Shown piece by piece: positions 13,316 through 28,355 of a DNA stretch of 64,000 bases. The DNA is from Longibacter salinarum. GTDB taxonomy: Bacteria > Bacteroidota > Rhodothermia > Rhodothermales > Salinibacteraceae. Position 1 is the stretch's first letter, and every line of letters starts with the position of its first letter. The notes below the pieces were generated by a model. That model saw only the letters and a list, made by a program, of their open reading frames with translations. It searched no databases and was not told the DNA's origin. Where the stretch lies: NCBI RefSeq assembly GCF_002554795.1, contig NZ_PDEQ01000002.1, positions 310,001 to 374,000 on the forward strand, given 5' to 3'. Made by a program: the position numbers and the translations under genes.

Positions 13316-13963
13316 ATGCCGCAGATATTTCCGAAGAAGGCTAACGTCCTGCCGATCCTCTCTCTGGGGGGCGCTCTGTTGGGCGGCGTCGCGCTCATAT
13401 TCCTGGTTTGGTACTACTTCTCTCCCGAGTTTCTGGTGGTTGGTTATCAGCCCGATCAGCCCGTGGCATACAACCACGAGTTTCACGCCGGTCAGCTTGG
13501 AATGGATTGCCGGTACTGCCACAACTGGGTAGAGAACTCTGCGCACGCCAACGTGCCTCCCACCCAGACGTGCATGAACTGCCACAACCAGATTAAGACG
13601 CAGTCGCCGCAGCTGCTGAAGGTCCGAGAGAGTTGGGCCACGGACACGCCGATTCAGTGGGTGAAAGTGCATCACCTGCCGGATTACGCGCACTTCAGCC
13701 ACGCGTCGCACGTCAATAACGGCGTGGGGTGTGAGACCTGCCACGGCCGTATCGACAAGATGGAGGTCGTGTACCAGGCAGAGCCGCTGTCGATGGGTTG
13801 GTGCCTTGAGTGTCACCGCCAGCCGGAGCTCTACCTCCGTCCCAACGAGGAGGTGACGACGATGGGGTATGTTCACCCCGAAAACTTTGTCGAGATCAAC
13901 CTCGCCCGTATTCAGGAAGAGGGGATTCAACCGCCGACCAACTGTTCGGCTTGCCACTACTAA
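13316..13963 (+). CDS. actA: Alternative Complex III subunit A, pentahaem cytochrome c
   Basis: 215 residues. One membrane segment (13-34) anchors a periplasmic domain with five CxxCH haem c sites: CRYCH 65-69, CMNCH 86-90, CETCH 139-143, CLECH 163-167 and CSACH 210-214. Five haems, an N-terminal anchor and position directly before actB are diagnostic of ActA. In the Act complex it carries electrons away from the quinol-oxidising core. The protein ends one residue after the last haem motif. It is the first gene of a long co-oriented respiratory block. Confidence 0.93.
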   Translation: MPQIFPKKANVLPILSLGGALLGGVALIFLVWYYFSPEFLVVGYQPDQPVAYNHEFHAGQLGMDCRYCHNWVENSAHANVPPTQTCMNCHNQIKTQSPQLLKVRESWATDTPIQWVKVHHLPDYAHFSHASHVNNGVGCETCHGRIDKMEVVYQAEPLSMGWCLECHRQPELYLRPNEEVTTMGYVHPENFVEINLARIQEEGIQPPTNCSACHY

Positions 13964-14179: not shown

Positions 14180-17100
14180 ATGATTGAGCTTGACGTCATC
14201 GATCCCAAGTCGGCCGACCGCGAGGAGCCTAGTGAGCGCTTCTGGCGAAGCCTTCCGCAGCTTGAGCGGAAGACGTCCGGCGATGGGGCTGACACTCCGA
14301 CACCTGAGTTTTCCGATGGGGCCAGCGAGCCGCCGAGCAAGGCGTCTCGTCGCCAGTTCCTGCAGTTGATGGGAGCAGCGATGGCCATGGCGGGTCTGAC
14401 CGCCTGCCGTCGACCCGATCAGCGCATCCTTCCGTACGCCCGGAAGCCGGAAGATGTCATTCCGGGGATTCCACAGCATTTTGCCACGGGCATGCCGTTC
14501 CGTGGGTCGTTGCGCCCGCTGCTGGTTGAGAGCCACGAAGGGCGTCCGACCAAGGTGGAAGGCAATCCTGATCACCCTGGGTCGAACGGGGGGACCAGCC
14601 CGTTTGAGCAGGCATCCGTTCTCAACCTGTACGATCCAGATCGCTCACGCTCCGTCTGGCGCGATGGTAGCAAGGCGGAATGGGCCGACTTCAAGTCGTT
14701 CTGTGTTGAACTCGCCAATCGGGCGGCGAATCAGGAGCTCGCTATCCTCATGCCAACGAGTTCGTCGCCGACGCTCGAGGCGATGCTAGAGAGGGCGCGC
14801 GGTCGCTTCGGCTCCGTTCGGGTCGTGGAATACGCAACCGAGGGCAACGACAACGCTCGCCTCGGCATGCAGCAAGCATTCGGACGTCCGTACCGCGCAC
14901 AATACGACTTTGAGCAGTCGGATGTCGTCCTGAGCCTCGACGCGGACTTCCTCGACGGCAAGTCGCCGGACTTTCTGAATAACAACCGGACGTTCTTCTC
15001 CGGTCGGCGCGTCGACTCCGTCGATGACGACATGAACCGCCTTTACGTTGTGGAAAGTCAGTATTCCACAACGGGCGGGACGGCTGATCACCGCCTTCGC
15101 ATGAAGGCCAGCGTCGTTTCGGCGTTTGCGGCCACCGTCGCTGCCGAGATGGGTCTCGGTACCGCTCCCGACTACGACTGGAGCGAGAAAGAGGCTGTTC
15201 ACGCCCGTGAGATCGCTCGAGATCTCCAGGAAGCTGGCTCGCGCGGTGTTGTTGTTGCTGGCGAAACGCAGCCTCCGGAGGTTCACGCCCTCGCGATGGC
15301 TATTAACGAGCGCCTTGGCGCGATCGGGAACAGCGTAATGCTCCTCGATACGGGTGTCGAGTCTGTCGAGGCGCAGGACGAAGAGCTCGCTACGCTCGTC
15401 GACGACATGAACGCCGGTCGTGTGGGCACGGTCCTGATGATGGGCGTCAATCCCGTTTACGATGCGCCCGCCGGGCTCAATTTCCGCGAGGCGCTACAGC
15501 GGGTGGACAACACCATCCACGTCGGGCTTCGCCGAAACGAAACCGCCCGCGCATCACGCTGGCATCTGCCGCGAGCGCACTATCTGGAAGCCTGGGGCGA
15601 CGGTCGTACCTTCGACGGTACGCTCTCGGTCATTCAACCACTTATTGCCCCGCTCTACAGCGCATCCCACTCCGAAATCGAGGTGCTCAACCTCCTCGGT
15701 ACGGGAATGGATGAGTCGGGATATGACCTTGTCCGGGACACCTGGCGTGGTCAAATCTCGGGTTCGTTCGAAGAGGGATGGCGCCGCGTTCTCCACGACG
15801 GCTACCTTGCTGATTCCGCCTATCCGACGGCATCACCCGGTTCGGCCAGCGTTCCCAGCATCGATACGCCGTCCGATGACGGGCTGGAGGTGATCTTTCG
15901 CCTTGATCCGTCCGTTCTCGACGGATCGTATGGAAATAACGCGTGGATGCAGGAGCTGCCGGACCCGGTCACGAAGATTACGTGGGATAACGTCGCCGTG
16001 ATGAGTGCCGCGACGGCTGCCGATCTCGGCCTCTCCGCCGACGGTACGTACGACGAGGGTCAGGAAAACGGTTACAGCGAAGGAAACTTCTTCGTCGATC
16101 GCGTCAATCTGACAATCGACGGCGAAACCATCAACATTCCCGTCTGGGTTCAGCCGGGTCTTCCCGATGGAACGATTGGTCTGACGCACGGCTACGGCCG
16201 CGCGATCTCGACCACACGCGATCCGGAAGGAACGCCGTTCTGGGATACAGATAACGCGACGGACGTCTACTTCGACGGACCGATTGCTGGAGGGGTTGGA
16301 TCTGATGGTGAGCCGGTCAATTCCGTTGGTGTGCGGACCTCGCATCTGCGCCCATCCGGGTCGCGCATAGCAACGGGGGCGACGGTCGAGAAAGCCAGTA
16401 GTGGTTACATGATCGCGACCACCCAAGAGACCGGCTCCATGCACGGTCGAGCCATCGTGCGCTGGGGATCTCTCGAGGAGTTTCGCAACAACCCTGAGTT
16501 TGTCAAGGAGGAGACCGAACCGGTCCCGGGCGACGAGTACGACTCCTTCGAAGAGTTTCCGGAGCTGTGGGCGAAGAATCACCCCAGCGAAGCTGCGGCG
16601 ATGAAGGATAGCAACTACTTCGATAACCAGTGGGGCATGGTCATCGACCTCAACACGTGCACGGGCTGCAACGCCTGTGTCGTGGCCTGCACGAGCGAAA
16701 ACAATGTGCAGGTGGTCGGGAAAGAATCCGTAAGTAACGGCCGTCACATGTACTGGCTCCGGATGGACCGGTACTATTACTCGGGTGAGGACGACCGAGA
16801 AGAGCCCGAGATGATGATGCAGCCGGTGATGTGCCAGCACTGCGAGAACGCTCCCTGCGAGTCGGTTTGCCCGGTCGCAGCCACGGTGCACTCGCCGGAT
16901 GGCACCAACCAGATGATCTACAACCGTTGCATCGGGACGCGGTACTGCTCCAACAACTGCCCGTACAAGGTCCGCCGGTTCAACTTCTTCAACTGGACGA
17001 AGACGCTGCCGCAGGAAGTCAAAATGGCGCAGAACCCGAACGTCACCGTTCGGTCCCGTGGCGTCATGGAGAAATGCTCCTGGTGCGTTCACCGGATTCG

Positions 17101-17422
17101 CGACAATCAGCACCGGGCGAATCAGGAAGAGCGCGATCTTCGTGCGGATGAAATCCAGACGGCATGCCAGCAGGCCTGCCCGACAGAGGCCATCACGTTC
17201 GGCGATCTCAACAACCCCGAAAGTTCGGTGGTTGAGAAGCGGAAGAACCCGCGCCGCTACGAGCTGCTGTCGTACCTCAACGTCAAGCCGCGCCTGTCGT
17301 ACCTGGGCCGGGTTCGCAACGTCAACCCGCGCATTCAGGAGGCGCTCGGCCTCGATATGGAGGAAGGGCCCGCCGCGCCGGAAAGCGCCGACGAGCCGGA
17401 GACGGCAGAAGCGACGGCGTAA
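14180..17422 (+). CDS. actB: Alternative Complex III subunit B, molybdopterin-family/Fe-S fusion
   Basis: 1080 residues, as in fused ActB proteins. A Tat-like signal sits inside an extended N-terminus: RR at 57-58 followed by QFLQLMG and a hydrophobic stretch ending at Cys76 in a lipobox-like LTAC, so the protein is probably folded before export and may be lipidated. Residues ~80-800 resemble the molybdopterin oxidoreductase family, which in ActB is known not to bind molybdenum. The C-terminal domain starts near 815 and has four cysteine clusters: CTGCNACVVAC (827-837), CQHC..CESVCP, CIGTRYCSNNCP and CSWC..CQQACP, matching three 4Fe-4S and one 3Fe-4S centre. The tail is acidic and Ala/Glu-rich. 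The start ATG at 14180 keeps the YW/FWRSL segment typical of ActB. Confidence 0.93.
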   Translation: MIELDVIDPKSADREEPSERFWRSLPQLERKTSGDGADTPTPEFSDGASEPPSKASRRQFLQLMGAAMAMAGLTACRRPDQRILPYARKPEDVIPGIPQHFATGMPFRGSLRPLLVESHEGRPTKVEGNPDHPGSNGGTSPFEQASVLNLYDPDRSRSVWRDGSKAEWADFKSFCVELANRAANQELAILMPTSSSPTLEAMLERARGRFGSVRVVEYATEGNDNARLGMQQAFGRPYRAQYDFEQSDVVLSLDADFLDGKSPDFLNNNRTFFSGRRVDSVDDDMNRLYVVESQYSTTGGTADHRLRMKASVVSAFAATVAAEMGLGTAPDYDWSEKEAVHAREIARDLQEAGSRGVVVAGETQPPEVHALAMAINERLGAIGNSVMLLDTGVESVEAQDEELATLVDDMNAGRVGTVLMMGVNPVYDAPAGLNFREALQRVDNTIHVGLRRNETARASRWHLPRAHYLEAWGDGRTFDGTLSVIQPLIAPLYSASHSEIEVLNLLGTGMDESGYDLVRDTWRGQISGSFEEGWRRVLHDGYLADSAYPTASPGSASVPSIDTPSDDGLEVIFRLDPSVLDGSYGNNAWMQELPDPVTKITWDNVAVMSAATAADLGLSADGTYDEGQENGYSEGNFFVDRVNLTIDGETINIPVWVQPGLPDGTIGLTHGYGRAISTTRDPEGTPFWDTDNATDVYFDGPIAGGVGSDGEPVNSVGVRTSHLRPSGSRIATGATVEKASSGYMIATTQETGSMHGRAIVRWGSLEEFRNNPEFVKEETEPVPGDEYDSFEEFPELWAKNHPSEAAAMKDSNYFDNQWGMVIDLNTCTGCNACVVACTSENNVQVVGKESVSNGRHMYWLRMDRYYYSGEDDREEPEMMMQPVMCQHCENAPCESVCPVAATVHSPDGTNQMIYNRCIGTRYCSNNCPYKVRRFNFFNWTKTLPQEVKMAQNPNVTVRSRGVMEKCSWCVHRIRDNQHRANQEERDLRADEIQTACQQACPTEAITFGDLNNPESSVVEKRKNPRRYELLSYLNVKPRLSYLGRVRNVNPRIQEALGLDMEEGPAAPESADEPETAEATA

Positions 17423-17501: not shown

Positions 17502-19001
17502 GTGGACAACACGACCAGCCAACCCACGGCCGAACATCACCACAGTGCCGGGCACGCTCACAACGAGTCGCTCGTCAAAGGCAATCTCTCGTTCCACGAC
17601 ATCACGGAGATGGTGTCGCGGCACACAGAGAAGAAGACGCCGCTTGCGTGGTACATTGCGTTCGGTCTGGCTTCCTCCATGGCCGCGCTGCTACTCCTTA
17701 GCCTGGCTTATCAGGTCTGGAACGGCGTCGGCGTATGGGGCAACAACCAGCCCGTCGCCTGGGGCTGGCCGATCGTCAACTTCGTGTTCTGGGTTGGTAT
17801 CGGTCACGCCGGAACGCTGATCTCGGCGATTCTCTTCCTCTTCCGGCAAAAATGGCGTACCTCTATTAACCGGGCGGCAGAGGCGATGACGCTCTTTGCC
17901 GTGATGTGTGCACTCATCTTCCCGACCTTCCACGTGGGCCGGGTCTGGGTGATCTACTGGACGCTACCGATCCCGAACCAGATGGAGATGTGGCCGCAGT
18001 TCAAGAGCCCGCTCCTCTGGGACGTATTCGCTGTTTCGAGCTACTTCATCGTTTCGCTTGTTTTCTGGTACGTGGGACTGATACCGGACCTTGCGACGAT
18101 TCGCGACCGCTCGAGCACGTGGCTGCGCAGGAAAGTGACCGGGTTCTTCTCACTCGGCTGGACCGGTGCCAACCGGCACTGGCGCAATTACGAGAAAGCA
18201 TACTTGCTTCTCGCCGGTCTTGCCACGCCGCTCGTTCTCTCGGTTCACTCCGTGGTGTCCTTTGACTTTGCCGTCTCCGTCCTTCCTGGGTGGCACACGA
18301 CGATTTTCCCACCCTACTTTGTTGCCGGTGCCATCTTCTCCGGCTTCGCGATGGTGGTGACGCTCATGGTTATCGCGCGAAAGGTCTACGGCCTCGAAAA
18401 CGTCATCACGTTGGACGTCCTCGAGAAGATGAACATCATCATTCTCGTGACGGGTACGATCGTCGGTTTTGCCTACATCACAGAGTTCTTCATGGCGTGG
18501 TACTCGCAGGTTGAGTACGAGCAATACGCCTTTATTAACCGGGCCTTCGGTCCGTACGCCTGGGCGTACTGGATCATGATGACCTGTAACCTGATCTCGC
18601 CGCAGCTCTTCTGGTTCAAGAAGCTCCGCCGGTCGATTCCGGTCATGTTCGCGCTCTCTATTGTCGTGAACATCGGTATGTGGTTCGAGCGCTTCGTGAT
18701 TACGATCACGTCGCTGCACCGCGACTTCCTGCCGAGTTCCTGGGGCTACTTTGAGCCGACGCTGACCGACGTCACGACGTTCATCGGCTCGTTCGGCCTC
18801 TTCTTTACACTCTTCCTGCTCTTCCTGCGGTTTGTCCCGATGGTTGCCATGGCAGAGGTGAAGGGCGTGATGCCGGAAGCCGATCCGCATTACTACGACG
18901 AAGGTGACGGCCATACGGCTGAAAGCAAGGTGCCGTATATCCAGCCGGCACAGGAAGACAACGGACGAAACGAAGCCGGTGAGACCCGGGGCGGCAAGTA
19001 A
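17502..19001 (+). CDS. actC: Alternative Complex III subunit C, NrfD-type quinol-binding membrane protein
   Basis: 499 residues beginning at a GTG. A His-rich polar N-terminus (~45 residues) is followed by about ten membrane segments of the NrfD/PsrC fold, for example near 50-72, 85-105 and 125-145, with conserved WYIAFG and [20 protein letters not shown] motifs. In ActC this subunit carries a quinol site and is a proposed proton path. It pairs with ActF, the related NrfD-like subunit three genes later. The C-terminal tail is polar and acidic. The upstream spacer is 79 bases. Confidence 0.92.
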
Positions 19002-19085: not shown

Positions 19086-19709
19086 ATGCTAGACGAACTG
19101 ACACGCGAACTGAAAGCCACGATGGGCATCTATGAGAGCGACGAGGAGCAGGTTTACGGCCTGCTCGCGGAGTTCTCAGATCCCGGGGCTCTGCTCCACG
19201 CGGCGGAGGCCGTGCGCGAAAACGGCTACAGCCACTTCGATACGCACAGCCCGTTCCCGATTCACGGCATGGACCGTGCAATGGGGCTCGGCAACTCGAA
19301 GGTTGGCTTCTTCTCGTTCGGGGGCGCTGTCACCGGCCTCGCTGTCGGATATCTGTTGCAGTGGTGGACATCGGCCGTCGATTACCCGATTAACATCAGC
19401 GGCAAGCCGTTCTTCGCCGTCGAGCCGTCTGTGCCGATCATGTTCGAACTGACCATTTTGTTCGGCGCGCTCGGCGCTGTGGCGGGAATGCTCGCCCTGA
19501 ACGGTCTGCCCCGCCCGTACAACCCGCTGTTTTACTCCGAGCGGTTCGAGCGCGTGACCGACGATGCCTTTTTCTTGCACATCGCTGCAAGCGACAGTCA
19601 GTTCGATGAGACAGACACAGCGAACCTGCTCCGCAAGGCGGGGGCGTTGAATGTCGAACTCGTGCAGGACGACGGGACCGCAGAAACGGCGCCTGCCTCT
19701 AGCCTCTAG
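19086..19709 (+). CDS. actD: Alternative Complex III subunit D (DUF3341)
   Basis: 207 residues. The N-terminal domain has the DUF3341 signature (GLLAEFSDPGALLHAAEAVR, then YSHFDTHSPFPIHGMDRAMG at ~50-70). Two membrane segments follow, near 76-98 and 118-140, with a periplasmic loop containing KPFFAVEPSVPIMFE. The remaining C-terminus is soluble. ActD is a structural subunit of the complex whose exact role is still unclear. The 84-base spacers on both sides fit an operon. Confidence 0.92.
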   Translation: MLDELTRELKATMGIYESDEEQVYGLLAEFSDPGALLHAAEAVRENGYSHFDTHSPFPIHGMDRAMGLGNSKVGFFSFGGAVTGLAVGYLLQWWTSAVDYPINISGKPFFAVEPSVPIMFELTILFGALGAVAGMLALNGLPRPYNPLFYSERFERVTDDAFFLHIAASDSQFDETDTANLLRKAGALNVELVQDDGTAETAPASSL

Positions 19710-19793: not shown

Positions 19794-20471
19794 ATGCGCA
19801 ACCTACTCACGACCGGACTGATTCTCAGCGTCCTTCTGCTGGCCGGATGCCGGGGAACGACGTCGGATCGCAATCCGATTCACCCGAACCCCAACATGGA
19901 CTGGCAGCCGAAGTACCAGGCCCAGGAGAAGAACACGTTCTTCGCCGACGAAGCCGCCATGCGGAAGCCCGTTGCTGGTACTGTGGCACGTGGACTGCTG
20001 AAAGAGGACCCGATCTTCTATACGGGCCGAACCGAGGCAGGAGACTACGTGGAGCGCCTTCCGATCGAAACCACTCGCGACTTGCTGGAGCGCGGGAAGG
20101 AGCGCTATGAAATTTTCTGTGCCGTTTGCCACGGGAAGTCCGGCGATGGCAACGGCGTAATTATGGTTGGCGGTCCACAGGGGAAAGGGTATGGCTACAC
20201 CCCGGCACCTAGTTACCACGTTGATCGCCTCCGGCAGGTGAGTGATGGCTATCTCTACGACGTGATCGCAAACGGCATTCGCAACATGCCCGGATACGCA
20301 CAGCAGATCCCGGTTCGTGATCGCTGGGCCATTGTCGCCTACATCAAGGCGCTACAGTTAAGTCAGAACGCGACACGTGAGGATCTGACGTCAGAGCAAA
20401 TTGCCCGGATCCAGAGCGGACGTAGCGCCAACATCGACGGATCCCGTTCCGGCGCTTCTAGCTCGCAATAA
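19794..20471 (+). CDS. actE: Alternative Complex III subunit E, monohaem cytochrome c lipoprotein
   Basis: 225 residues. The lipobox LAGC (Cys19) predicts lipidation at the periplasmic face. One haem c site, CAVCH (109-113), with the likely sixth ligand Met165 in NMPGY, makes this a class I monohaem cytochrome. ActE accepts electrons from ActA/ActB in the complex and can pass them to the oxidase. The Ser/Gly/Arg-rich C-terminus is probably disordered. Confidence 0.93.
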   Translation: MRNLLTTGLILSVLLLAGCRGTTSDRNPIHPNPNMDWQPKYQAQEKNTFFADEAAMRKPVAGTVARGLLKEDPIFYTGRTEAGDYVERLPIETTRDLLERGKERYEIFCAVCHGKSGDGNGVIMVGGPQGKGYGYTPAPSYHVDRLRQVSDGYLYDVIANGIRNMPGYAQQIPVRDRWAIVAYIKALQLSQNATREDLTSEQIARIQSGRSANIDGSRSGASSSQ

Positions 20472-20600
20472 CTCGACCGCCTCTGACTCCTTCTGGTGGC
20501 TCGCGCCACGACGTCACCGGAACCCTTCGTACTCGACACGACCGTTTTCGGGACTCCGTCCCTCAGGCGCGTCCCGACACCACCGAACACGACACACCCC

Positions 20601-21863
20601 ATGGCCGACTCCGTTCGCTCCAACTCCGTACTGGGATGGCTGGCCGACCCGCTGGCATCGACTGCTGACGCCGCTCAGCGTGCCTACCGCTTTACCGCCG
20701 ACCGGCGCTCCTACCTGGCGCCTCTCGCGATTGGTGTGGCCCTGCTGCTGGTGAGCCTCGTCGGCTTTGCCACGGACGCCTCGCAGTTCTACTTCTCCTA
20801 CTTCATCGGATGGATTAGTTGCCTCACCATTGCTGTGGGCGCGCTGTTCTTCCTGTTCTTCAACCACTTGACGAAGGCGTCGTGGAGCGTCGTCGTTCGG
20901 CGTGTGAATGAGTCGATCGTCTGGGCTTTTCCCTTACTGTTTGTCTTAGGCATCCCAATCGTCTTCGGGATGCACGACCTGTATCACTGGACGCATGAAG
21001 AGCTCTACGTTGTCGGAGGTCCAGAGTACGATCCCATCCTCGCTGGAAAACGTGGATACCTGAATACGCCTTTCTGGATCGCCCGCGTCGTCGTGTACTT
21101 CGCGCTGTGGACGTTCCTCAGCTACAAGCTCTATGCGGATTCCGTTCGGAGCGATGTGGAAGGAGGCGAAGGGCTGCCCGCAAAGCTCCGTAAAACCTCC
21201 GCGTGGGGGCTTCCGCTGACAGCGGTCGCGACGGCATTCGCGAGCTACGACCTGCTGATGTCTACCGATCCGCACTGGTTCTCGACGATCTTCGGCGTTT
21301 ACTTCTTCATTGGCGGCATCCTAGCCGCCGTGTCGCTCATGGTCGTTCTCCTCGCCTCGTTCCAGCGGATCAGTGGCATGCTGGATGGCGTCGTGACGAC
21401 CGAGCATTACCATGACCTCGGCAAGTACATGTTTGGCTTCACGGTTTTCTGGGCCTACATCGCCTTTAGCCAGTACATGCTGATCTGGTACGCCGGCATT
21501 CCGGAAGAGACGATCTTTTACAAGCACCGACTCATGCACGGATGGGAATGGCACAGCGCGTTCCTTGTACTCTTCCACTTTATCGTCCCGTTCCTCGTGC
21601 TCCTTCCCCGGTTCACGAAGCGGTCGCTGCCGACGCTCTCCTTCATGGCCGTCTGGTTGATCGGGATGCACTGGTTCGACATTCACTGGATTGCGGCCCC
21701 GGTCCACGATGCACACCACACGTTCCACTGGCTTGACCTGACCCTTGGACTGGGTCTCTTCCTCGTCTTTGCCGGGACCATCGTGTACCGCCTCACTCGA
21801 CATTCCCTGGTGCCTGAGAAGGATCCGTACCTGGGAGACTCGCTACATTTTGAAAACGTGTAG
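20601..21863 (+). CDS. actF: Alternative Complex III subunit F, NrfD-type membrane protein
   Basis: About 420 residues from the ATG at 20601; an in-frame GTG at 20496 would add 35 residues without a recognisable feature and is less likely. About ten membrane segments of the NrfD family are seen (e.g. LAPLAIGVALLLVSLVGFA near 35-55). MSTDPHWFSTIFGVYFFIG and TVFWAYIAFSQYMLIWY are conserved ActF motifs. It is the partner of ActC in the membrane core. It ends the act genes and is followed by a 215-base spacer. Confidence 0.92.
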   Translation: MADSVRSNSVLGWLADPLASTADAAQRAYRFTADRRSYLAPLAIGVALLLVSLVGFATDASQFYFSYFIGWISCLTIAVGALFFLFFNHLTKASWSVVVRRVNESIVWAFPLLFVLGIPIVFGMHDLYHWTHEELYVVGGPEYDPILAGKRGYLNTPFWIARVVVYFALWTFLSYKLYADSVRSDVEGGEGLPAKLRKTSAWGLPLTAVATAFASYDLLMSTDPHWFSTIFGVYFFIGGILAAVSLMVVLLASFQRISGMLDGVVTTEHYHDLGKYMFGFTVFWAYIAFSQYMLIWYAGIPEETIFYKHRLMHGWEWHSAFLVLFHFIVPFLVLLPRFTKRSLPTLSFMAVWLIGMHWFDIHWIAAPVHDAHHTFHWLDLTLGLGLFLVFAGTIVYRLTRHSLVPEKDPYLGDSLHFENV

Positions 21864-22078: not shown

Positions 22079-22903
22079 ATGGATACCACCGACTCGAATA
22101 CACGCTTGGAGTCTCCGGCTCTTGTATCCCCGCGAGGGGCCGAGGTCGTGTATGGCCGCGAAGTCACATTCCAATGGGATGACGTTGACGGTGCGGACGC
22201 CTACACGCTTCAAGTGTCGTCGGATGCGAAGTTCAACAACGTCGTACTGCGGGAGGACGTCGGGAAGCAAACGGCTGTCACCGTTGGAGACTATTTTCCG
22301 ACCGACAACAGTACTTACTTCTGGCGTGTGATCGCCCGCGGCAACGGGGGCGAGACGCCCGGAGAGCGCATCGAGAGTTTCATTGCGGCCACTGAGCAGG
22401 ACGCAAACCGCGTCATCTCGTCGCCCGCTGAAGAGATGGGCCCTGCAACCCAACTCGTACGTGCCGCGAAGCAAGACGTCTCCTCAGAAATGCTTGAGCC
22501 GGAAAGTCGGTTCGAGAAAGAGAAGGAGATGGGTGTTGCTTACGAGGGCGTGGCGACCGGTCAGATCATGTCGATCGCATTGTCGATCCTCGTCGCGATT
22601 GGGATTGCCGTCATCGTACTGTTCAACTGGTACAATACAACGACGGCTGTCCAGCGTGAAGCCTCAAGTCAGGCAGGCGAATACACGCAGCTTCGCGAGA
22701 TTGAAGCACAGGCCGACGAGCAGTTGAGTCAGTCCGGTGTCGTTGATGAGCAGGCCGGTGTGTACCGGATTCCGATTGAGGAAGCGATGGACATCATCGC
22801 TACAGAGCAGTTCCGCGCGCAGCAGGCCGAACGTGTGGGCGAGTCGCCAGCGGTAACCGGCGGCGCACAGAATCAGGACGATATCCCAGATGGGCAGCCG
22901 TAA
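22079..22903 (+). CDS. Unknown single-pass protein with FN3-like domain, in respiratory block
   Basis: 274 residues, no signal peptide. Residues 12-103 look like a fibronectin type III-like sandwich (VTFQWDDVDGADAYTLQVS, then STYFWRVIARG near 78-88). A charged linker leads to one membrane segment (163-185), and the last ~90 residues include a Gln/Glu-rich helix and the segment YRIPIEEAMDIIA, a motif that looks conserved by design. Orientation is uncertain: without a signal the FN3-like domain is probably cytoplasmic unless the segment inverts. It lies between actF and the SCO1 gene in the same direction, which suggests a role in assembling or coupling the Act complex and caa3 oxidase. I do not recognise the family. 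Confidence 0.8.
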   Translation: MDTTDSNTRLESPALVSPRGAEVVYGREVTFQWDDVDGADAYTLQVSSDAKFNNVVLREDVGKQTAVTVGDYFPTDNSTYFWRVIARGNGGETPGERIESFIAATEQDANRVISSPAEEMGPATQLVRAAKQDVSSEMLEPESRFEKEKEMGVAYEGVATGQIMSIALSILVAIGIAVIVLFNWYNTTTAVQREASSQAGEYTQLREIEAQADEQLSQSGVVDEQAGVYRIPIEEAMDIIATEQFRAQQAERVGESPAVTGGAQNQDDIPDGQP

Positions 22904-23038: not shown

Positions 23039-23938
23039 ATGATGGTACGCACCCGCACGGTGCTTGTCACCGTACTCATTCTGCTCTTCGCGAGCGTGTC
23101 TCTGGCGGCCGCCCAGGCGCCACCAGAGAAGCAGAAGCGTCGCGAATTCGAGGGGGTGGGCATTGATGCGAAGCACGGTCAAACGATTCCGAAGGACCTC
23201 GTCTTTAGGAATAGCGAGGGCGATCCCGTTAGCCTGGAGCAGTACTTCGACGGAGAGAAACCCGTCATTATCAACTTTCTGTACCACGAGTGCCCGATGT
23301 TGTGCGGCCTCATGCTAAACGGCATGACGTCCACTCTGTCGGAGATGTCGTGGACGCCCGGGGAGGAGTTTCGCGTGTTGTCGATCAGCTTCAACCATCG
23401 CGAGACGTCCAGCGTGGCACGGGAGGCGAAAGAAACGTATATCAAACAGCTTGGAAAACCGGATGCGGCCGATGGATGGCACTTCCTCACGGGAAGTAAA
23501 GCCTCCATCGACGCGCTGACATCCTCGACTGGATTCCAGTTTCGATGGGTGGAAGAGCAGCAAGAATATGCGCATCCGACCGCGTGGGTCTTTCTCAGTG
23601 GCAATGGAAAGATCACGCAGTACATTTATGGAATGGAACCGAAGGCAGGCGACGTCCGCAAGGCGCTCGTTGAAGCATCGGACGGGTCGGTGGGGAACCC
23701 CCTTGATCAGGTTGCGATGTACTGCTTTCAGTTTGATCCGGAGGCCAATACGTATACGGCCGACGCATTCAACCTGATGAAGATCGGGAGTGTCATCACC
23801 GTTTTTATACTCGGTGGCGCCCTGTTCTTCTTCTGGCGTCGTGAGAATGAAGATCTCCGCGACATGGAGGATCGTGATCCTCTAAAGGAAATTGACGAAC
23901 TCGAGGACACCGGCGCATTGAAAGAGCGTTTCGGATGA
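23039..23938 (+). CDS. SCO1/SenC-type copper chaperone
   Basis: 299 residues. A signal peptide (1-25, cut near AAAQ) is followed by a thioredoxin-fold SCO domain with the copper site CPMLC (Cys85, Cys89) and the third ligand His179 in EYAHPT. SCO proteins deliver or reduce copper for the CuA centre of cytochrome oxidase subunit II, encoded next. Unlike short SCO proteins it has a C-terminal membrane segment (~249-267) and a charged cytoplasmic tail. Start chosen at the first ATG of an MM pair. Confidence 0.92.
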   Translation: MMVRTRTVLVTVLILLFASVSLAAAQAPPEKQKRREFEGVGIDAKHGQTIPKDLVFRNSEGDPVSLEQYFDGEKPVIINFLYHECPMLCGLMLNGMTSTLSEMSWTPGEEFRVLSISFNHRETSSVAREAKETYIKQLGKPDAADGWHFLTGSKASIDALTSSTGFQFRWVEEQQEYAHPTAWVFLSGNGKITQYIYGMEPKAGDVRKALVEASDGSVGNPLDQVAMYCFQFDPEANTYTADAFNLMKIGSVITVFILGGALFFFWRRENEDLRDMEDRDPLKEIDELEDTGALKERFG

Positions 23939-23992: not shown

Positions 23993-24057
23993 GGCTGGAG
24001 TGCTTCGGCCATCGGCCGTAACCCCATTTGCAACTGAACACCATTACCGACCTGAAT

Positions 24058-25026
24058 ATGGGCGACCAGGGCACATTTTGGCTTCCAGACGGCGCTTCCA
24101 CGATCGCGCCGGAGGTAGACAGCCTGTTTATGTTCGTGACGTGGGTCAGCACGATTCTGTTTGTTGGGGTCGTACTGGCAATGCTGTACTTCGCGATTCG
24201 CTACCGGCGTAAAAGCCCAGGGGACCGTCCGCAGCCGATCAAAGAGAGCAAGATCCTGGAGATTTCCTGGATTGTCGTTCCTACGATTCTGGTGCTGCTG
24301 GTCTTCAACTGGGGCTTCAAGTCGTTCGTCAAGATGGGCGTTGCCCCGCCGAACGCATACGAGATTCGCGCCGAGGCATGGAAGTGGAACTGGCGATTCA
24401 CGTACCCCAACGGGACGACGAGCCAGGATCTCTACGTGCCGGTCAATCAGCCGGTGAAGATGAAGATGAGCAGCCAAGATGTCATCCACAGCTTCTTCGT
24501 GCCGGCCTTCCGCGTCAAGAAGGATGTTGTCCCGAATCGGTATAGTCAGGTATGGTTCGAAGCAACCGAGACTGGAAACTTCGACGTCTTCTGTACGGAG
24601 TATTGCGGCACAGCGCACTCGGATATGATGGCGACCGTGAAGGTTGTCTCTCAGTCCGAGTTCAACGAGTGGCTCGAATCCGGTGGGGGAGCGACAGACG
24701 ACATGCCGCTGCCGGAGCTCGGCGAACTCCTGTACGAGCAGCAGGGTTGCCAGACCTGCCACTCGATGGACGGCTCGCCGAAGGTTGGACCGACATGGAA
24801 AGATCTGTACGGCAAGCCGAATCACCCTATGGCAGATGGATCGACCGTGACGGCCGACGAGGACTACCTCAAGGAAGCGATTGTCGAGCCTGGAGCCAAG
24901 ATTGTCGAGGGGTATCAGAATGTGATGCCCGCATCGTATTCGTCGCTCAGCGAGCGTGAGCTGGCTGCTTTGATCGAATTCATGAAGGCAAACAGTCAGT
25001 ACGCCGAAGACGGATCCGGCAGCTAA
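24058..25026 (+). CDS. coxB: Cytochrome c oxidase subunit II with fused cytochrome c (caa3)
   Basis: 322 residues from the ATG at 24058; a TTG at 24028 would add ten residues. Two membrane helices (about 22-47 and 66-90) hold a periplasmic cupredoxin domain with CuA ligands His144 and CTEYCGTAHSDM (Cys179, Cys183, His187, Met190). A cytochrome c domain is fused at the C-terminus (CQTCH 231-235, candidate Met ligand in NVMPAS). This fusion defines a caa3 oxidase, which takes electrons without a separate soluble cytochrome. It follows SCO1 and precedes coxA as in Rhodothermus. Confidence 0.93.
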   Translation: MGDQGTFWLPDGASTIAPEVDSLFMFVTWVSTILFVGVVLAMLYFAIRYRRKSPGDRPQPIKESKILEISWIVVPTILVLLVFNWGFKSFVKMGVAPPNAYEIRAEAWKWNWRFTYPNGTTSQDLYVPVNQPVKMKMSSQDVIHSFFVPAFRVKKDVVPNRYSQVWFEATETGNFDVFCTEYCGTAHSDMMATVKVVSQSEFNEWLESGGGATDDMPLPELGELLYEQQGCQTCHSMDGSPKVGPTWKDLYGKPNHPMADGSTVTADEDYLKEAIVEPGAKIVEGYQNVMPASYSSLSERELAALIEFMKANSQYAEDGSGS

Positions 25027-25187: not shown

Positions 25188-26933
25188 ATGGACTCCGCGA
25201 CGAAAGGGGCCGAAGTGGGGCATGAGGAGCACCACGACGAGGCGCATGACCAGAATTATCTCCAGTACGAGCCAGGCATTTGGAACTGGCTGACGACGAA
25301 GGACCACAAGAAGATCGGCATCATGTATGCCGTCTCGCTTGCGGTGGTCTTCCTCGTAGCCGGCGTCCTCGCACTGATGGTGCGGACCGAGCTCGTCTCC
25401 CAGGGCGAGACGATCATGGATGCGGACACCTACAATCAGGTGTTCACGATGCACGGCATCCTGATGGTCTTCCTGTTCCTGGTGCCATCGATTCCTGCCA
25501 TCCTGGGCAACTTTGTCTTGCCCCTTCAGATTGGCGCCAAGGACGTAGCCTTCCCTCGTCTCAACCTGGCGAGCTGGTACGTGTACATGATTGGTGCCAT
25601 CATGACGTGCGCCGCGTTGTACTTCGGCGGCGTTGACACAGGATGGACGTTCTATACGCCATATTCCTCGACGACCGGCGGCGGGGTCCTCTGGATGACG
25701 TCCGCTATTTTCGTCTCCGGGTTCGCTTCGATCTTTACGGGGCTGAACTTCATCGTGACCATCCATAAGATGCGTGCGCCGGGGATGACCTGGAACCGGC
25801 TCCCGCTCTTCATCTGGGGGCTCTACGCGACGTCCATCGTACAGGTGCTCGCGACTCCGGTTATCGGGATCACGATGCTTCTCCTGATCCTCGAGCGCAC
25901 TCTCGGAATAGGGATCTTTGATCCGGCGCTCGGCGGGGACCCGGTGCTCTTCCAGCACTTCTTCTGGTTCTACTCACATCCGGCGGTTTACATCATGATT
26001 CTGCCGGCATTCGGGATCATGAGCGAGCTGATTGCAACGTTCAGCCGCCAGCGCATCTTCGGGTATCGCGCTATCGCCCTGTCCTCAGTCGCGATCGCCA
26101 TGCTTGGTTTCCTCGTCTGGGGACACCACATGTTCGTCTCCGGGCAGTCGGCGATCTCGTCGATTATCTTCTCGCTGATCACCTACCTGATCGGCATCCC
26201 GTCCGGTATTAAGGTCTTCAACTGGGTCGCCACGATGTACCGTGGTTCGATCTGGCTGCAGACCCCGATGCTCTACGCTCTCAGCTTCCTGTTCCTGTTC
26301 ACGATTGGTGGCTTCACCGGCATTATGGTCGGTGTTCTCGCCGTGGATGTGCACCTCCACGACACGTACTACGTTGTTGGACACTTCCACTACGTGATGA
26401 TGGGCGGTTCAGTCATGGCGCTTCTGGGCGGCATGCACTACTGGTGGCCGAAGATCACGGGGCGAATGTATAACGAGACGCTCGGGAAGATCGCCGTCTT
26501 CCTGATCTTCGTCGGGTTCAACGCGACATTCTTCACGCAGCTTGTTCTCGGCGCGAAGGGTATGCCGCGACGCTACTATGACTACGTTGAGCGCTTCGAG
26601 GCTCTCCACCAGATCTCGACCTATGGGTCGTACATCCTCGGTGCCGGCCTCTTCCTCGTGCTGTTCTATGGTCTCTACTCTCTCTTCTACGGCGAGAAGG
26701 CGTCCGCGAACCCCTGGGCCGCTGCCACACTCGAGTGGACCAACGTCGCTGCGTTGCCCGATCCGCACAACTTCGTCCGGACACCGCTTGTAACGCGCGG
26801 CCCGTACGACTTCCACCTCGCCGACGAGGTATTCGGTGGCGACGGCATGGGAGACGGAGCCACGAAAACCCTCGATGTCCCGGAGCCGGCTCCCGCTGCA
26901 CCGGAGACAGCAGAAGAGTCATCGAAGGCTTAA
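25188..26933 (+). CDS. coxA: Cytochrome c oxidase subunit I (caa3, YSHPAV type)
   Basis: 581 residues with about twelve membrane helices plus an extra C-terminal segment. Haem-copper motifs are present: a CuB-ligand region [10 protein letters not shown] (Tyr262, His264) and [20 protein letters not shown] with the haem a/a3 ligands. The Glu of the classical D-channel motif GHPEV is replaced by the Tyr-Ser pair of YSHPAV, the signature first described for the Rhodothermus marinus caa3 oxidase (A2 type). It reduces oxygen to water and pumps protons. Subunit III is a separate gene downstream. The acidic, Pro/Ala-rich tail is probably disordered. Confidence 0.95.
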
Positions 26934-26944
26934 ACACACTCCGA

Positions 26945-26981
26945 CCGTGGCAGGCATTCACGTGCCTGCCACGGCTTTCTC
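26945..26981 (+). terminator. Terminator-like hairpin between coxA and coxC
   Basis: CCGTGGCAGGCA and TGCCTGCCACGG form a perfect 12-base-pair stem around TTCACG, followed by CTTTCTC. It lies 11 bases after the coxA stop but inside an apparent operon. The weak T-run suggests partial termination or a 3'-end stabiliser for the upstream message. Confidence 0.55.
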
Positions 26982-27094
26982 ACTCTGTACGTGCCGGTGT
27001 ACCCCACCTCGGATTGCCCCGCTATCCGGAGACTGGCGCTGCGCGCCCCGGCGCGCGGTACCATCGGCCTCTTTATCGCTAGAACGCTAGATTC

Positions 27095-27823
27095 ATGGCA
27101 ACGGATACCACGACCGAAACGCCGGCCGCTCCGGCACAGACGGAGGTGGATCATCACCACGAGGAGCACCTCTCTCACCTGCAACACCACTTTGTTTCGT
27201 CGGAGCAGCAGTTTGACTCCGCGAAGCTCGGCATGTGGCTGTTTCTCATCACGGAGGTCCTGCTCTTCAGCGGCATGTTCGTCGCGTATGCCGTCTTCCG
27301 CCAGTGGCACCCGGAAACCTTCAGTGTGGCCAGCCAAACGCTTGACTGGCACTTGGGTGGACTCAACACGGTCGTCCTGCTGGCGTCGTCGTTTACGATC
27401 GCTCTGGCGATCCACTACATCCAGAAAGGGGAGACCATGCGATCTTTCTGGCTCCAAATAACGACGATCTCACTTGCCGGCGTCTTCCTCGTAATCAAGT
27501 ACTTCGAGTACACGGCCAAATTCGAACACGGCGTCTTTCCCGGCGCCATGTTTGACCCTCATGGCACGGCGCACGGCGTCGACTACGGAGCGCTTGCAAG
27601 CTATGCCTACGCCCCGCAGTTCTTCAGCATTTACTTCGTCATGACGGGCATCCACGGATTCCACGTCGTCGTGGGAATGATCCTGATCGGCTGGATTGCG
27701 AGCCGGACGTACCGCGGACACTTCAATAGCGAGTACTACACGCATATCGAACTGTCTGGCCTGTACTGGCACCTGGTCGACCTGGTCTGGATTTTCCTTT
27801 TCCCGCTCCTCTACCTCGTGTAG
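27095..27823 (+). CDS. coxC: Cytochrome c oxidase subunit III
   Basis: 242 residues. A polar, His-rich N-terminus (~35 residues) is followed by about five membrane helices, with the family motifs [30 protein letters not shown] and [20 protein letters not shown]. Subunit III supports proton uptake stability and assembly. It begins 161 bases after coxA, downstream of a strong hairpin, and coxD follows after 46 bases. Confidence 0.94.
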
Positions 27824-27869
27824 CGCTCGAACTGCCTCCTCGCTACACACCGAATCCAAGACGTTCCCT

Positions 27870-28355
27870 ATGTCGCACGAATCGCATCACATCATCCCCT
27901 TCAAGACCCTCGCCACGGTCTTTGCATCTCTGATTGGTCTGACTGTGCTCACAGTCGTTGCCGCTCAGTTGCCTCTTGGCCCGCTCGACATGCCGGTGGC
28001 TATTCTGATTGCGGTGGTTAAGGCTTCGCTCGTCGTGATGTTCTTCATGGCGCTGAAGTACGATAAGCCGGTCAACTCCCTGACGTTTTCCGTTGGGACG
28101 CTCTTCGTCGTGATCTTTATCACGTTTACGCTCTTCGATACTGCGTTTCGTGGGGATCTAGGCGACGTATCCGCCGAAACGGTGGACGAGATCACACAGC
28201 AGGAGACCGAAGCGAGTGAGCGGCAGAAGACGTTTTCTGCCGAGCAGATGGCCGTCAGTCCTGCAGACTACGAGGCGCTTCGCAACGGTGAGTCTTCTGA
28301 CACGTCGGCTGCCTCGGATACGACGGCATCCGATACCACAGAGACGACCGAGTAA
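27870..28355 (+). CDS. coxD: Cytochrome c oxidase subunit IV family protein
   Basis: 161 residues from the ATG at 27870; longer readings extend into coxC in the wrong frame. Three membrane helices (about 14-35, 42-60, 68-88) with VVKASLVVMFFMALKYD match the prokaryotic COX4 family. The final ~65 residues are a polar Ser/Thr/Glu/Asp tail, longer than in most relatives (~100-110 residues). Spacing and order fit the caa3 operon. Confidence 0.88.
   Translation: MSHESHHIIPFKTLATVFASLIGLTVLTVVAAQLPLGPLDMPVAILIAVVKASLVVMFFMALKYDKPVNSLTFSVGTLFVVIFITFTLFDTAFRGDLGDVSAETVDEITQQETEASERQKTFSAEQMAVSPADYEALRNGESSDTSAASDTTASDTTETTE

Follow-up and report, generated by a model that had tools for sequence, protein, structure and literature searches.

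A probable ActG subunit with an FN3-like N-terminal head encoded between actF and SCO1 in Longibacter salinarum

ActG, the seventh subunit of alternative complex III (ACIII), is the least understood one. In Chloroflexus, one account describes actG as closing one act cluster and directly preceding SCO1 in the other (PMC3150298). In Rhodothermus marinus the subunit was described as encoded by the act cluster, with one predicted transmembrane (TM) helix, and was detected in the purified ACIII by peptide mass fingerprinting, with no density in the map; the same account found ActG to be missing in some act clusters and considered it dispensable for catalysis (PMC5928083). R. marinus actG is mentioned again in PMC3534657, whereas PMC9316378 calls ActG Chloroflexus-specific and absent from R. 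marinus ACIII.

The locus compared here lies in a window, the whole stretch of 64,000 nucleotides analysed, from Longibacter salinarum (contig NZ_PDEQ01000002.1). A preliminary description had placed an FN3-like membrane protein between actF and SCO1 inside a respiratory block, and this was borne out: an exact open reading frame was found within actABCDEF-SCO-cox, one hydrophobic helix makes its product a membrane protein, and all genes run in the order ActA-like, ActB, ActC, ActD, ActE, ActF, the window gene, SCO1 and oxidase subunits II, I, III and IV (Table 1). A same-genus orthologue is 80% identical across residues 1-267. The protein has a single hydrophobic stretch, contains no cysteine and carries no redox cofactor motif. 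An identity as an SCO-type copper chaperone was not supported, with no cysteines (the copper ligands) and no Pfam or NCBIfam family match.

Table 1. Features of the act-SCO-cox block and of the protein in the slot after ActF (positions in the window)
Feature	Position	Strand	Evidence
ActA-like multihaem cytochrome	13316..13963	+	five CxxCH motifs; immediately precedes ActB; name from position and haem count
ActB	14180..17422	+	ORF; homologues at same place in relatives
ActC	17502..19001	+	ORF; homologues in relatives
ActD	19086..19709	+	PF11821 E=1.8e-67
ActE monohaem cytochrome c	19794..20471	+	PF13442 E=2.9e-13
ActF	20589..21863 (listed ORF start 20496)	+	ORF; relatives' homologues
Probable ActG-family protein with N-terminal FN3-like domain, 274 aa	22079..22903	+	ORF with ATG start; slot orthologues; profile match 8k9e_G
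FN3-like beta-sandwich, residues ~12-105	22112..22393	+	AlphaFold strands 15-104, pLDDT ~90-97; Foldseek
Acidic helical linker, FN3 to membrane helix, residues ~106-150	22394..22528	+	low-confidence model helices 106-114, 122-138, 142-150
Single transmembrane helix, residues 163-181	22565..22621	+	hydropathy; model helix 160-217
ActG motif YRIPIEEAMDIIA, residues 229-241, within hairpin-helix C-terminal segment	22763..22801	+	alignments and slot-protein count
SCO1/SenC copper chaperone	23039..23938	+	PF02630 E=1.3e-6
caa3-type oxidase subunit II, fused cytochrome c	24028..25026	+	TIGR02866, PF00116, PF00034
Oxidase subunits I, III, IV	25188..28355	+	collinear homologues in relatives; names by position

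Assignment of the slot protein to ActG

No named family was found for the window protein in Pfam or NCBIfam, and RefSeq gives it no family name either; matches to Pfam Wzz (E=0.14), NCBIfam PotD (E=0.08) and a PHROG major tail protein (E=0.012) were regarded as chance. When the protein was searched alone against the PDB, nothing was obtained at E<=1, and the R. marinus-like protein of 130 residues alone reached E=0.046. Since these single-sequence matches were weak, profiles built without PDB sequences were run against 177,635 PDB sequences, and the link to ActG depends on them. A profile of 36 slot proteins yielded a single match at E<=10, chain 8k9e_G, which is named ActG (E=0.0005). The core-only profile ranked the same chain first (E=1.5e-4), as did profile A4, made from 29 family members including the window core (E=8.5e-8). 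The next match of A4 was the TM region of an ABC exporter at E=0.0025, so that weak TM-driven matches do occur; the alignment with 8k9e_G covers the motif segment behind the TM helix and not the helix. Judged from the sequence of its TM and motif core, the window protein is very probably ActG, the small single-helix subunit of ACIII. The absence of a known family claimed in the preliminary description thus stands for Pfam and NCBIfam but not for the PDB.

The R. marinus slot was approached through ActF. The R. marinus protein retrieved with the window ActF as query matches chain F of 6F0K, an entry given as the R. marinus ACIII structure in PMC8552683. In one genome (L036), ActF is identical to 6f0k chain F across 412 residues, and hence this genome belongs to R. 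marinus or is extremely near to it. Its slot protein, of the Rhodothermus marinus type, has 130 residues, one TM helix and the motif YRVPIDRAM. Its equation with the ActG described for R. marinus is based on its position, its number of TM helices and elimination. The sequence evidence speaks against the absence of ActG from R. marinus ACIII, the point on which PMC9316378 and PMC5928083 differ, and unnamed slot genes of several phyla would be joined in one family that bears on this conflict at the sequence level.

Distribution of the slot gene

A homologue with TM helix and motif occupied the position between ActF and SCO or CoxB, where a search for homologues had been proposed, in every act-cox locus obtained from relatives (37 of 37); the absence of homologues that the preliminary description had named as a refutation was not observed. 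These loci come from 40 regions taken from relatives, of which 37 contain ActF; 35 of the homologues were found by script and two (L052 and L067) by reading open frames. The three regions without ActF are L066 and L068, with a second FN3-type match, and L074, a weak match in the window's own genome. The window query matched 57 of 60 relatives, with many of the weaker matches being FN3 stretches only, and many slot homologues are short (113-160 residues). In 59 of 59 further regions, from genomes with a core match, the gene preceding ActG was ActF, and in a set of named loci retrieved through the motif ActG occupied the slot every time (17 of 17); this set includes a Rhodothermus sp. MAG, Salinibacter altiplanensis, Longimonas halophila, two Zixiibacteriota and one Gemmatimonadetes. 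Since the core or the motif was the criterion of selection, these two sets speak to where the gene lies and not to whether it is there. In seven annotated plasmid records from Alpha- and Betaproteobacteria and Planctomycetota, the gene in this slot is labelled "hypothetical protein"; an eighth record has no annotation at this position. Genes so labelled would gain a name, ActG. Two further observations concern the window's family: ActB matches are split in some loci (L056, L058, L072, L073), with the break near residues 783-791 of the window ActB, and L072 and L073 have no SCO between ActG and CoxB.

Among 296 genomes of the same phylum, ActD was found in 220 and the ActG core in 87 with profile A6, a count that replaces the 82 of 296 obtained with profile A2, which missed ActG in G062 and G243. 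All 87 carriers have ActD, and none of the 76 genomes without ActD has ActG; one of the 87, G233 (E=6.5e-5, three stops, motif uncovered, far from ActD), we regard as chance. In a second phylum (39 genomes) ActG was found in 11 and ActD in 21, every ActG carrier again having ActD. Nine of these 11 genes lie by act genes (eight on the ActD contig, and that of G360 beside ActE and ActF), and the other two, at L202:8480-8848(-) and L203:8642-9001, are ActG-type genes that head an SCO-cox cluster on a stretch where no act gene was seen. Both genomes, which belong to the phylum of a Zixiibacteriota match, carry ActD elsewhere. The scan of the phylum with the Gemmatimonadetes match covered two genomes only.

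Seventeen act clusters without an A2 match (for three of them, without an A4 match) were inspected, L205-L221. In L215 and L216 ActG was present by a wider profile; in seven (L208-L211, L218, L220, L221) the slot was empty before a divergent oxidase; in another seven (L205-L207, L212-L214, L219) a cytochrome c occupied it, in L206 by tblastn match only; and L217 had no oxidase on the stretch examined. The absence of ActG from some act clusters, together with the act-free SCO-cox loci, leaves room for the assembly or coupling idea.

Conserved core and variable heads

A motif P-[IVM]-x-x-[AV] was found downstream of the TM helix in 94 of 94 tabulated slot proteins, and it is real and far above chance, its P and A being invariant in alignments A1, A2, A4 and A6. 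The distance from the end of the TM helix to the motif has a mode of 47 residues and a range of 38-68 (n=94), and the tail before the helix varies from 17 to 206 residues in the same proteins; this tight spacing beside a variable tail suggests that the protein works through its TM and motif segment. In the window protein the motif, of the type YRIPIxxAM, is followed by 33 more residues, so that of the claim that the protein ends with a regular motif the motif was upheld but not its terminal place. The AlphaFold model of the core alone is poor, with a mean pLDDT of 72.6 and a pTM of 0.32. Similar proteins were observed away from act genes: a 270-residue protein with an FN3-like part, a TM helix and YRISIDEAMKQ beside a ferredoxin-like gene in the window's own genome (L223:9295-10107, G000:C1), and full-length FN3-TM-IPI/IPV proteins in two genomes of the order, on stretches with no act or cox match (L066:11397-12269 and L068:1548-2378).

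The N-terminal part is different from lineage to lineage. In the window protein, AlphaFold modelled residues 11-110 as a beta sandwich (pLDDT ~90-97), and FN3 domains headed the Foldseek results for this model (best E=1.8e-5; 127 chains at E<=0.001), in agreement with the FN3-like character proposed from the sequence. The head is called FN3-like because no curated FN3 family matched, the Pfam and NCBIfam scan giving no FN3 model at E<=1. An FN3 domain was found in 15 of 97 slot proteins (families f1, f7, f8, f11, f12) by a domain-restricted profile; a count of 20 of 97 that added f10 and f13 came from an over-long profile and was rejected. A helix-turn-helix (HTH) head is present in 30 of the 97, all among the 35 members of the sister family f18, and 21 of these 30 match the transposase HTH PF01527 at E<=0.1 (best 8.5e-8); the remaining slot proteins have neither domain. 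In part of L131-L180 the HTH was seen to be continuous with the TM and motif core. In a tree of ActD, ActE, ActF and CoxB, HTH heads fall in one clade of 35, with losses, and FN3 heads are scattered inside one clade of the order whose inner branches are weakly supported, which suggests an early gain of the FN3 head and its repeated loss. In the literature searched, no description of an FN3-headed or HTH-headed ActG was found; while the subunit was known already, a swappable N-terminal domain appears not to have been described before, and these heads show the N-terminus of ActG to be a hot spot of domain fusion. The window's own genome also encodes, at L222:9402-10340 (G000:C4), a 312-residue protein that combines a pair of FN3-like stretches with a TM helix at its C-terminus. 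Its gene immediately follows one for a CcoI-like copper ATPase, and an SCO-like gene lies a few genes further on (names by eye), so that this is a second FN3-TM protein beside oxidase-maturation genes.

Topology, role and described counterparts

The overall explanation favoured here, which is likely to hold, is a variant of ActG with a lineage-specific FN3-like head and its N-terminus probably inside, which may clamp or couple ACIII to the caa3 oxidase. The suggestive evidence on topology makes it probable that the ActG helix is N-in/C-out, with the FN3 head cytoplasmic and the motif segment periplasmic. Where sister act clusters lack ActG, the product of the slot gene has a TM helix, next a cytochrome c domain and last a motif resembling IPIxxA, an order by which the motif side would be periplasmic. 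This short motif beat all 1,400 shuffles in two of six valid cytochrome proteins and failed to do so in three, with no match in one; L206 was left out of the six since its guessed stretch contained stops. Proteins of this kind, TM-cytochrome c with an IPI/IPV..A motif after ActF, were observed at L207:5337-6263 and in the slots of L205, L212, L213, L214 and L219, with two CxxCH sites each in L205 and L207, and are possibly ActG-cytochrome fusions. The opposite orientation, with the N-terminus and FN3 head in the periplasm and the YRIPIxxAM segment in the cytoplasm, is unlikely, even if FN3 domains are usually periplasmic and many longer ORFs of relatives contain stretches of a similar FN3-like kind. 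The N-side flank is strongly acidic and the C-side slightly more basic, but the charge bias does not decide the orientation (mean K+R near the helix 1.21 on the N-side and 1.33 on the C-side; N>C in 30, C>N in 36 and a tie in 28 of 94). The arguments against the periplasmic head are indirect: a tail of 160 residues would need to cross the membrane with no signal peptide seen by eye, f18 carries HTH heads, and cytochrome c lies between helix and similar motif in the sister clusters. The N-in orientation is favoured because of these sister-slot cytochromes and because HTH heads suit the cytoplasm. If it is right, FN3 and HTH domains would project into the cytoplasm from a respiratory complex, an unexpected arrangement.

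Based on gene order and presence in ACIII structures, a role of ActG in coupling or stabilising ACIII with caa3 is put forward tentatively, at somewhat less than even likelihood. In this mechanism, the YRIPIxxAM hairpin-helix would lie in the periplasm and clasp ACIII from that side, close to its haem subunits; as a peripheral clamp, ActG would stabilise ACIII or couple it to the caa3 oxidase encoded downstream, and the FN3 head would be an accessory docking module outside the ancestral function. Less probable is that ActG acts mainly as a maturation factor linked to the caa3 oxidase or SCO, encoded with ACIII and sometimes bound to it. The ActG-type genes of L202 and L203 directly before SCO and cox, with no act gene on the stretch, argue for such a factor, as do the seven Bacteroidota-type clusters with an empty slot, a divergent oxidase and no SCO, and the R. 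marinus ActG that gave no density and was judged dispensable for catalysis. Against it, deposited ACIII structures include ActG among their chains, cluster 1 of Chloroflexus is actABCDEFG with no cox genes (PMC3150298), the Salinibacter-type loci L072, L073, L107 and L113 keep ActG without SCO, and both genomes with act-free loci have ActD elsewhere. The undescribed assembly or coupling factor of the preliminary description, unrelated to any known subunit, would fit the missing Pfam or NCBIfam family and the single sequence without PDB match, but it is contradicted by the profile match of the core to ActG of ACIII structures, a subunit already fingerprinted in R. marinus ACIII, and by the R. 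marinus slot homologue, and is highly improbable.

A bolder reading, which we consider doubtful, is that ActG serves as a membrane port for interchangeable cytoplasmic domains in the main respiratory complex: FN3-like in the window lineage, and in f18 a domesticated transposase-type HTH through which ACIII and caa3 would be tied to DNA binding or to a position on the chromosome. If true, respiration would be linked directly to DNA.

Among known structures, the best Foldseek FN3 domains (1wk0, 3n1g_D, 2doc) have the same beta-sandwich as window residues ~12-105 at 8-23% identity in the rows listed, but the head of the window protein is attached to the TM anchor of a subunit in a respiratory complex. 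In R. marinus, ActH (Rmar_1979) is likewise a lineage-specific extra component of ACIII (PMC5928083), but it is all-helical, periplasmic and named from another locus tag, with a fold unrelated to the window protein. R. marinus ActG shares with the window protein the slot after actF, a single helix and the motif, but at 130 residues it lacks the FN3 head. Chain G (ActG) of 8k9e, 8k9f, 8x2j and 9ilt, whose organism we take to be Chloroflexus aurantiacus, resembles the window protein in a TM helix followed by a segment ending HIPIDRAMDLIVE. This ActG has 112 residues and no N-terminal domain, whereas the window protein carries about 150 residues more, with an FN3 fold.
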